Part shown: one piece after another, positions 1 to 12,876 of the stretch | Position numbering within the stretch: the first letter of the stretch is position 1 | How the letters are laid out: each line of letters starts with the position of its first letter | From: a virus | Virus record (IMG/VR): IMGVR_UViG_3300031227_016376 | Location: 1-21,088 of that record | DNA: 21,088 nucleotides | Direction: 5' to 3' (one strand) | Notes under the pieces: generated by a model | Told to the model about the DNA's origin: nothing | Database searches by the model: none | Seen by the model: only the letters and a program-made list of their open reading frames with translations | Position numbers and translations under genes: made by a program

Positions 1-1
1 C

Positions 2-604
2 AAAGAAGGAATGGTAAGTAAAGGAGGGGTGGGAAGCCCTCCAACTATGCCAGCACCTCCGCCTCCGAAAGGACAAGGTGACAATGTTGTGAAGGATGGT
101 TCGAGTCAATTGAAGAGTTTAGGGAGCAAAAAGGAAGAGTCCAGTTTTTTAAAGGATGATGTGAGTGGGCTGAAGAGTTTAGGGAGCAAGAAAACAAATT
201 ATCCGACTGTGACAGGGATAAATTCAGAGTTGCTAGAGAGGATCCCAAATCTTTATAAGGATAGAAGGTATGTGGTGAGATTTCGAACAAAAGAGCTGAC
301 CAGCCTTTGTCCTCGAACAGGTCAGCCGGATGGGGCAACACTTACAATCAAGTATATTCCTGATGAATTTATGGTGGAAAGTAAATCATTAAAATTGTAT
401 GTTGTTAGTTTTAGGTCAGCAGGCATGTTCATGGAAAGCCTTACCAATCTTATTGTTACCCATTTGGTTGCATGTATAAAACCTGTCGAGTTAATTGCAG
501 TTACAAACTTTAATGCAAGAGGCGGGATTACAACAGATGTTAAAATTCATTACGTTCGTGGCAAGGGTGTTCAAATGGATATTAATGAGGAAATGGTAAT
601 TTAG
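2..604 (+). CDS. queF: QueF-like 7-cyano-7-deazaguanine (preQ0) reductase, 5' end outside the window
   Basis: QueF reduces preQ0 to preQ1 with NADPH. Numbering from the ATG at 11, the catalytic segment CPRTGQPD (Cys100, Asp107) and the NADPH-binding signature ESKSLKLY (123-130) are both intact, followed by SFR and NARGGI as in type I QueF. The His that normally precedes the active-site Glu (B. subtilis His96-Glu97) is Met141 here, while Glu142 is kept. QueF homology starts near residue 54. Before it lie an imperfect copy of the same LKSLGSKK segment and a Gly/Pro-rich stretch (about 5-30). The frame is open to the window edge, and the ATG at 11 has GGA directly against it with no spacing, so the true start is probably upstream, perhaps in a fused domain. 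dpdA and queE in the window suggest a role in phage DNA modification. The family call is firm; the exact chemistry is less so. Confidence 0.85.
   Translation, partial: KEGMVSKGGVGSPPTMPAPPPPKGQGDNVVKDGSSQLKSLGSKKEESSFLKDDVSGLKSLGSKKTNYPTVTGINSELLERIPNLYKDRRYVVRFRTKELTSLCPRTGQPDGATLTIKYIPDEFMVESKSLKLYVVSFRSAGMFMESLTNLIVTHLVACIKPVELIAVTNFNARGGITTDVKIHYVRGKGVQMDINEEMVI
111..189 (+). repeat. Direct repeat inside queF, 60-base period
   Basis: The 19-base sequence TGAAGAGTTTAGGGAGCAA occurs at 111-129 and exactly again at 171-189. A weaker match extends the repeat upstream to about 92 and 152 (AAGGATG). It encodes two copies of LKSLGSKK. The downstream copy is in the normal QueF N-terminal position, so the upstream copy looks like an in-frame 20-codon duplication. 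Confidence 0.85.
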
Positions 605-648: not shown

Positions 649-755
649 TAAGACCAGAAGCAAAATTCCACTTAAAAATCAAACAGGCGCATGTTGTCAG
701 GTGCAGTAGTTCCTTTCTTGGTGCTTCTGGTCTTAGCCTACTCATGTGCCTGTTT
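649..755 (+). promoter_or_regulatory. Interleaved inverted repeats (predicted RNA pseudoknot) in the homing-endonuclease leader
   Basis: Two long inverted repeats interlock. Arm A (649-662, TAAGACCAGAAGCA) pairs perfectly over 14 bp with A' (722-735). Arm B (681-693, AAACAGGCGCATG) pairs with B' (743-755, CATGTGCCTGTTT) over 13 bp, with one G-U wobble as RNA. The order A-B-A'-B' is that of an H-type pseudoknot. B' ends 6 bases before the GGAG (762-765) and 15 bases before the ATG at 771, so a folded leader would sit against the ribosome site. No T-run follows, so it is not an ordinary terminator. The repeats are read directly; the fold and any regulatory role are inference. Confidence 0.65.
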
Positions 756-3137: not shown

Positions 3138-4146
3138 AATTTTACCTGCGGTAGATAATAAGGGACTTGTCCCTGAGTTCCAACATCTATTTTTTGATGG
3201 TCATTATGTTGAGGCTACTAACGGATCAATGTTTATTCGAGCTGAGCTGGATGAGGAGGTTCCTACATTTGCAGTAGAGGCTGCTGTTTTTCACTCACTT
3301 CTTAAGACGATTCAGGATGATGAAATCGAAATCGCAGTGAAAGAAAAAGCTGTTTCTATAAAAACAAAGAGCATTAAAACTGAGTTAGGTCTTCCAGAAA
3401 AAAAGTTGGTTAGTAGTATCAATTTTGATGTTGAAGAATGGAAAGAAGTTCCTGAAAACTTTTTAAGAGGGTTGTTCTTGTGTCGATATACTGCATGCCC
3501 TGATCAAACTGCAGGTCCACTTACAGGGGTCTGGGTAGGGGATGATGCTATTCTGTCCTGCGATCGCTGGAGAATTAGCCTGTATTCACTTAGTGTTAAG
3601 ATGGCTAATATGATTATACCTGTTGATATGATTGACCAGGTACAACGGTATGCAGATCAAGTTGAAGGGTATGCTGTGCAAAATGGTACGATTTATTTTA
3701 ATCTTGGAAAAGCAAAAATTGGTGCTAAACTGCTTTCAGGAGAGTATCCATCCGAAAATTTAATTAAATCGCTTGCCCAAGTGGACGATGCAGTTAAACT
3801 TTCTCTTTCAAAAGATTTAAAAAAGAGAATTTCAGAAGCTGGGAAGCGTCAAAATATTATTCAAACAAAGGCTCTTGAATTTGATCGTGTTTCTAATGTT
3901 AATATTGATAACGGAAAGATGACATTGTTTGCACAAAATGAGTCTGTAGGAACAATTGAAGAAACTCTTGGTTGTGAGGATGCAAAGGATGTAAAGTTTG
4001 AGTTTGCAATCAATCCTATATTTTTAACCCAGATGTTTACTGAAGTTACTAATCTATTATATTCTCAAATTAATAGTGTATGTGGGTTTGAAGGAGGTTC
4101 ATTCATTCACTTAGTTAAGACTAAGAGTGAAACAAAAGATGAATAA
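3103..4146 (+). CDS. dnaN: DnaN-like sliding clamp (beta clamp)
   Basis: A sliding clamp encircles DNA and tethers the polymerase. At 347 residues the protein is close to the roughly 366 of bacterial beta clamps and much longer than the T4 gp45 type (about 230). Family-like features are KTLLEATSKILPAV at the N-terminus, a central LLSGEYPSENLI segment (matching the L-G-x-FP of beta clamps) and a late FAINPIFLTQMF segment like the start of domain 3. AAGGAG lies 4 bases before the ATG. The start overlaps the previous gene and the end overlaps the polymerase gene by 8 bases, as expected for a clamp/polymerase pair. No strict catalytic motif exists in this family, so the call rests on pattern, length and context. 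Confidence 0.72.
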   Translation: MKTKTLLEATSKILPAVDNKGLVPEFQHLFFDGHYVEATNGSMFIRAELDEEVPTFAVEAAVFHSLLKTIQDDEIEIAVKEKAVSIKTKSIKTELGLPEKKLVSSINFDVEEWKEVPENFLRGLFLCRYTACPDQTAGPLTGVWVGDDAILSCDRWRISLYSLSVKMANMIIPVDMIDQVQRYADQVEGYAVQNGTIYFNLGKAKIGAKLLSGEYPSENLIKSLAQVDDAVKLSLSKDLKKRISEAGKRQNIIQTKALEFDRVSNVNIDNGKMTLFAQNESVGTIEETLGCEDAKDVKFEFAINPIFLTQMFTEVTNLLYSQINSVCGFEGGSFIHLVKTKSETKDE

Positions 4147-6664
4147 CGCTTCAATACAGCAAAGATCATTTGTAGTGGACGAAGCAGTTCTGCGTAAGAT
4201 AGAGAAATCTCATCGTCGTTTGCATCCTGCCAAGTCTAAATCAAAATATAAGCCAAAGCCACTTGTTCGAGATTGTTCTGTTTGCAAGTTGTTTCAGAAT
4301 TGTAATTCTCCAAAAATGGAGCCTTATGGTAAAGGTCAACTTAAGATTGCAGTTGTAGGGGAATCTCCTGGTAAAAATGAAGATCGAGAAGGTATTCCTT
4401 TTATTGGACCAAGTGGAAAATTATTAGATCGTGGATTTAAGTTGTATGGAATTGACATGAATCGTGATTGCATAAGAGTTAATGCATTTCAGTGTATGAC
4501 TACAGAAAAGAAAACGCCTACTAAAATGAAATTTTGGATGGATTGTTGTAGGCCTAGATTAGAAAAGCAACTTAAAGATTTTGAGCCAAAACTTATTATA
4601 GCACTAGGAGCTGAGGCTATGCGTGCTGTTCTTCGACCCTCATTTGAAAAGCCATCAGCTAATAGATACAGAGGTCTTGCGGTACCATCTCAAAAGTATA
4701 ATTGTTGGGTTGGATGTTGTTGGCATCCTGCATTTATTTTGCGCAGCAATGATGATTTAGAAGATCTATTTTTTAATGATTTAGCTATAGCACTAGAGTA
4801 TTTAGATAAGCCTGTCCCTCCATTGCTACCAAGCAATCATACTGTGCTTTCTACTGTTGAAGCAGCAAAAAAGTTTCTATTAGAGGCACAAACAGGCAAG
4901 ACTCCAATGGCATTTGATTTTGAAACTAATACTCTTAAAACCTATAATAAAAATGCAAAGCTTCATTGTTGTTCTTTTTCTGATGATCCTCAAACAGGCT
5001 ATTTCTTGCCATTACAATACAAAACTTTTTGGACAGAAGATGAGTTAGTTGAGATATTAGAAGCATTAGCTGATTGGATTATTTCTGATAGACCAAAAGT
5101 TGTACAAAATTTGTCAATGGAAGAAAAATGGGTCAATGAGTTTCTTCATGTATCAATTAATAATGTTGTAAATGATACTATGGTAACTCATCATGCTATT
5201 TATAATCGTTCGAAGACAACCAATTTAGCATTTCAATCATTTTTGTTAGGAGGAGCTGATTATAAAAATAGTATTGATGTTAAAAGAGAGGGTTGGGCTG
5301 ATATTGAACCAGAGGACAAAGTAATAAAATACTCAACATTTGATTCTCAGTATACTATTTTGTCACATCATAGCCAAATGGAAAAACTAGAAAAGATGCC
5401 TGAAGTAAAGAAAGGAGCAGAGTTTTTTGTACATTGTTATCCAGCTTTGATTGATATGGAAATGCAAGGGGTTGCAATTGATTGGAACCTTTTAGCAAAA
5501 CAAAGAGCAAATGCGGAAAAGAAACAGAAAGATTGCGATCAGTATTTTGAGCATAGCAGTTTTGTTAAAGATTTTCGACATACTACTGGAAGAGATGTTT
5601 GGAAACCAGGTTCTCCAAAAGATTTTATTGATCTGTTCTATAAGACGTTAAATTGCAACCCTCCTGATTGGAGAACTAAAGGAGGATCCCTTCCAGCAGA
5701 TAAGGAAGCTGTTGCTTTTATTGTTAGCCATGTGCAAGACGAATCGTTAAAAGAGTTCTGTGCTAAGATGATGGAGTGGAAAGGAGTTGATACTCTTTTA
5801 ACAACATTTATTTCGGGGCTTGAAAAAGCTAAGCAAGATGATGGTCTTATACATCCTAGTTTCTTGTTAAATACAGTTTCAAGTTATCGGTCAAGTAGTG
5901 CTAATCCAAATTTCCAGAATCAAGCTAAGAGAGGTGTTGAGCATGGTGAGTTTAGAAAAGTATTTATTCCTCATATAGGAAATCTTCTTGGTGAAACTGA
6001 TGCCTCTGGATCAGAAGTTCGAACTGTGGCAATGCTTTCTAAAGATTCTGTGCTTACTAAACAGATCCAGGAAAAGTTTGATCCTCATAGGTTTTGGGCT
6101 TCAAGGATATTTGATATTCGTGAACAAGATGTGACAGATCAGTTAAGATTTCTAGGGAAGAATAAAGTTGTTTTCCGATTATTTTATGGAGGTAGCTATA
6201 AAGCTGTTGCACATGATTGTAAGATTCCTGAAAGGCATGCCAAAAAGATAGTGGAAGAGTTTTGGGATGCATACAGCGAAGTTAAACAATGGCAAGATAG
6301 CGTAATTGCATTTTATAATAAATATCATTATATAACTATGCCAATGGGATTTAGAAGATATGCTCCACTTTCTCGAGAGCAGTTATTAAATACTGCTGTG
6401 CAAGGAACAAGTTTTCATATGTTGTTAACATCACTTAATGATATTATGAATGACATGAAGAAGAAAGAAATGAAAAGTGTCATGGAGATTGAGGTACATG
6501 ATTCTGCAGTTACTGACATTGTTGAGGAAGAAGTTGAAGATGTTCAAAAGATTCAAATTGCAAGAATGAGAGAGAAGCAATTTTCGTGGCAAGGAGATGT
6601 TCCTAGAGATTGTGATTTTACTTTAGGACCTAATTGGGGTGAACAACAAAAAATGGAGATATAA
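4139..6664 (+). CDS. polA: Family 4 uracil-DNA glycosylase fused to family A DNA polymerase with 3'-5' exonuclease
   Basis: The 841-residue protein has three parts. Residues 43-225 look like family 4 uracil-DNA glycosylase: GESPG (74-78), GIPFIGPSGKLLD (85-97), four Cys placed for an Fe-S cluster (46, 49, 119, 136 or 137) and HPAFILR (196-202). Residues 255-410 are a DEDD exonuclease: DFETN (Asp260, Glu262), QNLSMEEKW (323-331, with Glu where exo II normally has Asp) and YSTFD (Asp402). Residues 430-841 are the polymerase: motif A DASGSEVR (Asp621), motif B KNKVVFRLFYG (674-684), motif C EVHDS (His787, Asp788). The ATG at 4139 overlaps the clamp stop; a GTG at 4127 would add four residues. 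This is the likely replicative polymerase, working with the clamp before it and the loader after it. A UDG domain on the polymerase could detect or remove uracil at the fork, which is inference. Confidence 0.9.
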   Translation: MNNASIQQRSFVVDEAVLRKIEKSHRRLHPAKSKSKYKPKPLVRDCSVCKLFQNCNSPKMEPYGKGQLKIAVVGESPGKNEDREGIPFIGPSGKLLDRGFKLYGIDMNRDCIRVNAFQCMTTEKKTPTKMKFWMDCCRPRLEKQLKDFEPKLIIALGAEAMRAVLRPSFEKPSANRYRGLAVPSQKYNCWVGCCWHPAFILRSNDDLEDLFFNDLAIALEYLDKPVPPLLPSNHTVLSTVEAAKKFLLEAQTGKTPMAFDFETNTLKTYNKNAKLHCCSFSDDPQTGYFLPLQYKTFWTEDELVEILEALADWIISDRPKVVQNLSMEEKWVNEFLHVSINNVVNDTMVTHHAIYNRSKTTNLAFQSFLLGGADYKNSIDVKREGWADIEPEDKVIKYSTFDSQYTILSHHSQMEKLEKMPEVKKGAEFFVHCYPALIDMEMQGVAIDWNLLAKQRANAEKKQKDCDQYFEHSSFVKDFRHTTGRDVWKPGSPKDFIDLFYKTLNCNPPDWRTKGGSLPADKEAVAFIVSHVQDESLKEFCAKMMEWKGVDTLLTTFISGLEKAKQDDGLIHPSFLLNTVSSYRSSSANPNFQNQAKRGVEHGEFRKVFIPHIGNLLGETDASGSEVRTVAMLSKDSVLTKQIQEKFDPHRFWASRIFDIREQDVTDQLRFLGKNKVVFRLFYGGSYKAVAHDCKIPERHAKKIVEEFWDAYSEVKQWQDSVIAFYNKYHYITMPMGFRRYAPLSREQLLNTAVQGTSFHMLLTSLNDIMNDMKKKEMKSVMEIEVHDSAVTDIVEEEVEDVQKIQIARMREKQFSWQGDVPRDCDFTLGPNWGEQQKMEI

Positions 6665-12186: not shown

Positions 12187-12876
12187 ATGAAAGTTCACAG
12201 CATATTTATTACTATTCAGGGTGAGGGGCTATATTCAGGTGCTATTACTACGTTCATCAGATTTGCAGGCTGTCATTTGAGATGTGATTATTGTGATACT
12301 CGATATGCTCAGAATAATGATGACATTGATGATGTAGGGGTTCCATATATCATTGATAAAGTTACTTCTCTTTCTTCTAATCCAAGGTATATTTGTATTA
12401 CTGGAGGGGAGCCACTTGAGCAGCCTCAAACAGAAATGTTTAATCTTTTACAAGCCCTACAAAATTGGTGTGGTGCAAAGGGATTAGAATCAATAGTGAT
12501 TGAAACTAATGGGGCACAAGATGTTTCTTGGTTACTAGATAAACCTTTTAGATCAATTACTTCTTTATCAGTTGATTATAAACTCCCTTGTTCTGGTCAG
12601 GAAGATAAAATGCTTCTTAGTAACTTTAAGCATTTAGGACCAAGAGACGCCATGAAATTTGTTTGTAAAGATAAACAAGATGTTGATGTGGCTTTGAATG
12701 TTCTGGATAAATTAAAAGATTGTCCTGAATGCCAGCCTGTTGTGCTTTTTCATGCTTTAGGAGGTAAAGCAAGTGAGTGGTTACCTAAGTTGATGCTTAG
12801 TTGGGGAGAAGAGCTAAAACAAAGATGGGCTCTTCGTTATGGAATTCAGTTACACAAACTAGTGAATATGCAATAA
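12187..12876 (+). CDS. queE: QueE, 7-carboxy-7-deazaguanine synthase (radical SAM)
   Basis: QueE converts 6-carboxytetrahydropterin to 7-carboxy-7-deazaguanine, the ring-forming step of the preQ0 pathway. The 229-residue protein opens with SIFITIQGEGLYSG, followed by FIRFAGC and the radical SAM cluster motif CHLRCDYCDTRYA (Cys29, Cys33, Cys36). CITGGEPLEQP (70-80) is the SAM-binding GGEP segment. A later VIETNGAQD strand matches the ETNG of QueE. Length is typical of the family. A strong AAAAAGGA precedes the ATG. Together with queF and dpdA it supports a phage-encoded deazaguanine pathway. Confidence 0.92.
   Translation: MKVHSIFITIQGEGLYSGAITTFIRFAGCHLRCDYCDTRYAQNNDDIDDVGVPYIIDKVTSLSSNPRYICITGGEPLEQPQTEMFNLLQALQNWCGAKGLESIVIETNGAQDVSWLLDKPFRSITSLSVDYKLPCSGQEDKMLLSNFKHLGPRDAMKFVCKDKQDVDVALNVLDKLKDCPECQPVVLFHALGGKASEWLPKLMLSWGEELKQRWALRYGIQLHKLVNMQ

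Follow-up and report, generated by a model that had tools for sequence, protein, structure and literature searches.

Crossed long helices ahead of a phage homing-endonuclease-like gene and their possible role in restraining translation

A selfish endonuclease gene can last only where it does its phage no harm. A homing-endonuclease-like gene of an uncultured phage, carried by a 21,088-base virus record (the window, which is the whole stretch of DNA analysed), raises the question of how such a gene might be kept quiet, and whether two long, mutually crossing helices encoded just ahead of its ribosome-binding site could be part of the answer.

The endonuclease-like gene and its leader

The gene (771-1727, + strand) encodes a protein of 318 aa with Cys-rich CGCG motifs, a repeated WxDPxxR and a C-terminal EDxHD/DUF559-like nuclease domain. 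A homing endonuclease had been proposed here from the sequence alone, and profile comparisons are in keeping with a homing-endonuclease-like product through family-level matches: among the PHROG homing endonuclease families the ORF matches phrog_3339 (E 1.2e-5), and its nuclease domain gives weak matches to MTES_1575, PvuRts1I-like and DUF559 families, all below curated cut-offs, and aligns with phage proteins that have in common the motif Y-x-x-DGY-N-E-x-DE-x-x-H. On this family-level evidence we regard the product as probably EDxHD-type and homing-endonuclease-like. A PDB sequence search returned no match, a search of bacterial genomes found no copy of the endonuclease, and a profile of the nuclease domain picked out seven loci, whose leaders lie outside the leader counts given below.

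The upstream neighbor is a QueF-like (preQ1 synthase) gene at 11-604 on the + strand (PF14489, E 1.7e-23; TIGR03139, 134 bits against a cut-off of 86.9) and the downstream neighbor, also on the + strand, is a dpdA-like gene of the queuine tRNA-ribosyltransferase family at 1753-2727 (phrog_887, E 4.8e-43; tblastn matches to phage DpdA/Tgt genes). Together with a QueE-like gene at 12187-12876, these neighbors suggest a phage with 7-deazaguanine-modified DNA. Elsewhere in the window, a single ORF (4127-6664) encodes a family A DNA polymerase with 3'-5' exonuclease joined to a domain of the uracil-DNA-glycosylase superfamily; no tRNA or tmRNA gene was found in the window.

The 166-nt intergenic gap between the queF-like and endonuclease-like genes (605-770) is unusual for this tightly packed region. 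The frame of the endonuclease ORF is open back to an ATG at 645, and the 42 codons that this would add (645-770) score -0.10, where stretches of the same length in the window's genes have a first percentile of 0.07; an N-terminally extended ORF from ATG 645 was ruled out on this codon score. ATG 771 is preceded at good spacing, six bases upstream, by the Shine-Dalgarno sequence GGAG (762-765, + strand). Given the low codon score of the extension and the GGAG before ATG 771, 605-770 is most likely a non-coding leader.

A search for pairing scored by stacking energy identified four arms on the + strand of this leader. Arm A (649-662) pairs with arm A' (722-735) in a helix of 14 Watson-Crick pairs out of 14 (stacking -27.3 kcal/mol), and arm B (681-693) pairs with arm B' (743-755) in a 13-bp helix in which one pair is G-U (stacking -24.2 kcal/mol). 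The order of the arms, A-B-A'-B', is that of an H-type pseudoknot, and the loops between the crossed arms measure 18, 28 and 7 nt. Apart from helix A, no Watson-Crick stem in the 21 kb window reaches 12 bp within a span of 160 nt. The sequence-only reading had described two long arms crossing in this order within 107 bases, one perfect and one with a single G-U, and its coordinates were recovered exactly; its statement that the 3' arm adjoins the ribosome site also stands, as B' ends at 755 and GGAG begins 6 nt after it. The core helix thus stops 6 nt before GGAG, and the Shine-Dalgarno sequence is covered (three of its four bases) only by a weak outer extension of helix B predicted in the minimum free energy (MFE) fold of 645-775, in which CACUU at 669-673 (+ strand) pairs with GAGUG at 763-767.

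Non-random pairing and competing folds

The chance of such an arrangement was evaluated with a statistic defined as the stacking energy of the weaker helix in the best interleaved A-B-A'-B' pair. When 611-775 was dinucleotide-shuffled 20,000 times, no shuffle matched the leader value of -24.2 kcal/mol; a further 20,000 shuffles reached -14, -16 and -18 in fractions of 0.0139, 0.0012 and 0.0001 and never reached -20, so that the tail drops about tenfold per 2 kcal. The runner-up among 165-nt stretches of the 21 kb window scores -14.0, far weaker than the leader, and correcting for about 130 such stretches leaves the non-chance conclusion intact. The earlier judgement that both arms are very unlikely to have arisen by chance is therefore upheld by the shuffles and by the weak runner-up, and the pairing is real, with a function as nucleic acid almost certain.

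Whether both helices form in one molecule is a separate matter. The MFE nested fold of 645-775 contains helix B with the 669-673/763-767 extension at -37.3 kcal/mol, and the B form is preferred in 645-775, 639-790 and 650-790 (-37.3 to -37.6). Over 600-790, a nested A fold that recruits an upstream strand (616-648 paired with 742-769) reaches -45.1 versus -39.3 with B forced, and over 560-850 B is again preferred, by 2.5 kcal. In the nested folds, bases 763-765 are predicted to be mostly paired for all transcript starts tried. A rough estimate for the pseudoknot, computed as the stack sum plus a penalty of 9.6 kcal, is -40.5 (-43.1 to -35.1 for penalties of 7 to 15) versus -37.3 for the nested fold, both over 645-775. 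In our judgement the loop sizes make a knot possible, but the 7-nt loop beside a 14-bp helix would probably be too short for the classical coaxial form. Because the pseudoknot and the two competing nested folds are similar in estimated energy, a true pseudoknot with both helices in one molecule is plausible but unproven. Of the large pseudoknot originally predicted, the crossed pairing potential holds, whereas the simultaneous presence of the helices does not follow, since nested folds with A only or B only are about as stable.

Among the 23 gene starts tested in the window, the leader (-130 to +30, -37.6 kcal/mol) has the lowest folding energy, and the mean Shine-Dalgarno accessibility of the endonuclease gene is the sixth lowest. 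Taken alone, the segment from -80 to +15 is no more stable than its shuffles (z 0.49).

Relatives of the leader and of its layout

The sole close relative found is a contig of 6,134 bases (IMGVR_UViG_3300035698_029139) that aligns with the window over 4,779 bases with 3 mismatches; its leader is identical. The same leader in a second contig makes an assembly artefact unlikely, yet a single population could be the source of both. Viral contigs holding close relatives of the endonuclease and both neighbors amounted to this one contig with the same leader, a search of the IMG/VR viral contigs with the A-arm pattern matched only this near-identical contig, and blastn of the leader against the phage collection and plasmids gave nothing significant. 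The collections searched contained no diverged version, which leaves a single leader sequence and hence no covariation support; nor, with regard to the earlier suggestion that the structure may belong to the mobile unit itself, did an empty site turn up. In L013, which holds the nearest relative of the endonuclease itself, the gene is without such a leader. The sister contig (L092), otherwise nearly identical, diverges before position 83 of the window, so that the N-terminal end of the queF-like gene differs between the window (1-82) and that contig, and it carries a tnpB-like (IS605 OrfB) transposase gene on the - strand (147-1265), about 0.7 kb upstream.

Recurrence of the layout was evaluated in 95 EDxHD-type endonuclease leaders including the window, 222 control starts and 38 GIY-YIG/HNH leaders, with start codons taken as first ATGs, some of which will be wrong. 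Three of the 95 EDxHD-type leaders reached P ≤ 0.005 (0.5 expected): the window, L069 and L081. In L069 helices of 10 bp (A) and 9 bp (B) lie 18 nt before the ATG (score -18.5; P 0.001, 0 of 1000 shuffles), and in L081 helices of 10 bp (A) and 18 bp (B) lie 13 nt before it (score -15.5; P 0.003). The three have order and position in common and no sequence similarity. L081 also has a consensus promoter (TTGACA-17-TATAAT) whose predicted transcript start falls at the beginning of helix A; its leader is unchanged in several contigs, all of the same phage. Control starts gave 5 of 222 at P ≤ 0.005 (1.1 expected), and the strongest control scored -15.1. At a threshold of -15.5, which was chosen after the data had been seen, 2 of 94 EDxHD-type leaders qualify (the window excluded, as the reason for looking) versus 0 of 222 controls. 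Recurrence of the crossed layout is suggestive only, the control comparison being statistically not decisive.

The pattern is absent from the nearest relatives of L069 (L094 to L099) and from eight further relatives, and none of the 38 GIY-YIG or HNH leaders contains anything at the strength of -15.5. EDxHD-type start regions are slightly more structured than neighboring gene starts (P 0.003), and Shine-Dalgarno accessibility of the endonuclease genes as a group is no lower than that of controls. It is a doubtful, though conceivable, proposition that the window, L069 and L081 represent independent origins of a recurrent class of phage leaders in which a large A-B-A'-B' pseudoknot abuts the Shine-Dalgarno sequence and gates a selfish gene.

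Several other matches were set aside: interleaved repeats in L047-L049 are G-U-rich repetitive coding sequence in a terminase/intein-like frame, the numerous pairs in L021 were treated as a single locus and disregarded, and the L217 match looks, in our reading, like a tRNA gene. The comparison also brought up loci of separate interest. In L047/L049 (1051-3845) an EDxHD-type ORF interrupts a terminase-like gene and the downstream frame opens intein-like, which gives the appearance of a gene that has been split or interrupted, the endonuclease sitting in the gap. In L025 an EDxHD-type ORF (1913-2902) is followed by the C-terminal part of a DNA polymerase, and the gap between them holds a strong interleaved pair of 12 bp and 9 bp (P 0.003) with no Rfam intron match. 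In L081 (716-3975) a terminase-like gene is followed by a tandem array of three related endonuclease-like ORFs, the first of which is preceded by a consensus promoter of its own. Very stable simple hairpins occur at the endonuclease start codons of L192 (upstream of 1875; z about -6) and L189 (upstream of 1878; z about -5), and these are nearer to the T4 hairpin arrangement than the crossed helices of the window are.

Probable translational restraint and its alternatives

We consider the chances about even that 649-770 is a structured leader restraining translation of a free-standing homing-endonuclease-like gene. Helices A and B, either as a pseudoknot or as alternatives exchanging during transcription, would set a long duplex against the Shine-Dalgarno sequence, which the predicted outer extension of helix B would cover; initiation at AUG 771 would then be slow unless the structure were opened, and a potentially harmful nuclease may in this way be kept low or delayed inside what appears to be a single queF-dpdA transcription unit. 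Supporting this are the non-random pairing, the lowest leader energy of 23, the proximity of B' to GGAG, the predicted Shine-Dalgarno pairing, the non-coding look of the extension, the unusual gap, the L069 and L081 layouts and the documented T4-type precedent. Counted against it are the missing covariation, an accessibility that is only sixth-lowest, the z of 0.49, the L013 leader and the lack of an I-TevI-like promoter, as the arrangement with a late promoter inside the structure was not found at the leader.

Several alternatives bear on how the helices would act. It is rather unlikely that A-A' and B-B' are mutually exclusive and that the leader is bistable, interchanging between two nested folds, one of which (A with 616-648/742-769) would lock the Shine-Dalgarno sequence only in transcripts arriving from upstream. 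The preference for nested A over 600-790 and for B over shorter spans fits such a switch, as does the upstream strand, which carries UUCUUCC opposite GGAG with a duplex energy matched by 8 of 1000 shuffles; against it, the preferred fold varies with the ends chosen, and with the real upstream strand in place the total energy is unremarkable. As 200 of 1000 shuffled strands are as low in total energy, that strand may be chance, and 616-648 was downgraded as a designed switch arm. An improbable role lies in mRNA stability or processing, in which the structure would be a decay-blocking 5'-terminal duplex, or would be cut by RNase III between queF and the endonuclease-like ORF, and would not act on initiation. 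The transcript start predicted at helix A in L081 would suit this, and a -10-like hexamer in the window (TATAAC, 639-644, + strand), noted by direct reading and speculative as a promoter, lies 4 nt 5' of arm A, equally far as in L081. This hexamer has no convincing -35, a scan for sigma-70 promoters reported no consensus site at 639-644, and adjacency to the Shine-Dalgarno sequence is better explained by translational control.

Less probable again is that the inverted repeats act as DNA, as remnants or ends of a mobile element, an operator or an endonuclease binding site, RNA folding being incidental. I-TevI is autorepressed through an operator located 5' of its coding region (PMC2988022) and the tnpB gene of the sister contig shows mobile elements to be active here, but no target-site duplication was noticed around 649-755 and the repeats have no other copy in IMG/VR, the phage collection, plasmids or the rest of the window. 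Least probable is that the arms are coincidence or belong to the coding part of an extended endonuclease; the open frame from 645 would allow the latter, whereas the shuffle tests, the codon score and the well-spaced GGAG all oppose it. Translational restraint is the reading that we prefer.

Known systems offer partial parallels to a leader of this kind. preQ1 riboswitches are pseudoknots that sequester the Shine-Dalgarno sequence, and the window encodes a QueF; the leader differs in having far longer helices and no match to Rfam covariance models (preQ1 riboswitches, introns, ribozymes, HEARO), even at E up to 10, and the L069 and L081 leaders were likewise negative in Rfam. The best precedent available is the one that the sequence-only reading had invoked, T4 endonuclease leader hairpins, and by analogy it may apply here: the ribosome-binding sites of I-TevI, I-TevII, I-TevIII, segB and Aeh1 mobE are sequestered by RNA structures (PMC2988022). 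Common to these and the window are stable pairing at the initiation region and an endonuclease gene inside another transcription unit; the T4-type leaders are described as hairpins, and in several of them a late promoter takes the 5' arm out of the transcript, whereas the window has crossed helices and no evident promoter of this kind (PMC2988022). In Aeromonas phage 25, seg43(25) has a very stable structure directly upstream of, and not mainly over, the ribosome-binding site of a free-standing endonuclease gene, but as one hairpin with no crossing, and the function is putative in both (PMC2988022). The T4/RB69 gene 32 translational operator is a pseudoknot in a phage mRNA leader, ahead of the start codon, and was described in 2010 as possibly the sole viral example used in translational autoregulation; this H-type knot is short and coaxial, lies about 67 nt upstream, and is bound by gp32 and followed by an A+U-rich tract (PMC3014915), while the leader in the window has long helices, a middle loop of 28 nt and no known ligand. 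A literature search of partial coverage found no paper describing a homing endonuclease with a pseudoknot in its leader.

The locus at present offers one strongly supported pairing pattern, from which we infer a role. Work on T4 has established leader hairpins as one way to quiet selfish endonucleases; a crossed-helix version in unrelated endonuclease genes from uncultured phages, if true, would mean that large pseudoknots also serve this end, and would provide a compact natural test case.
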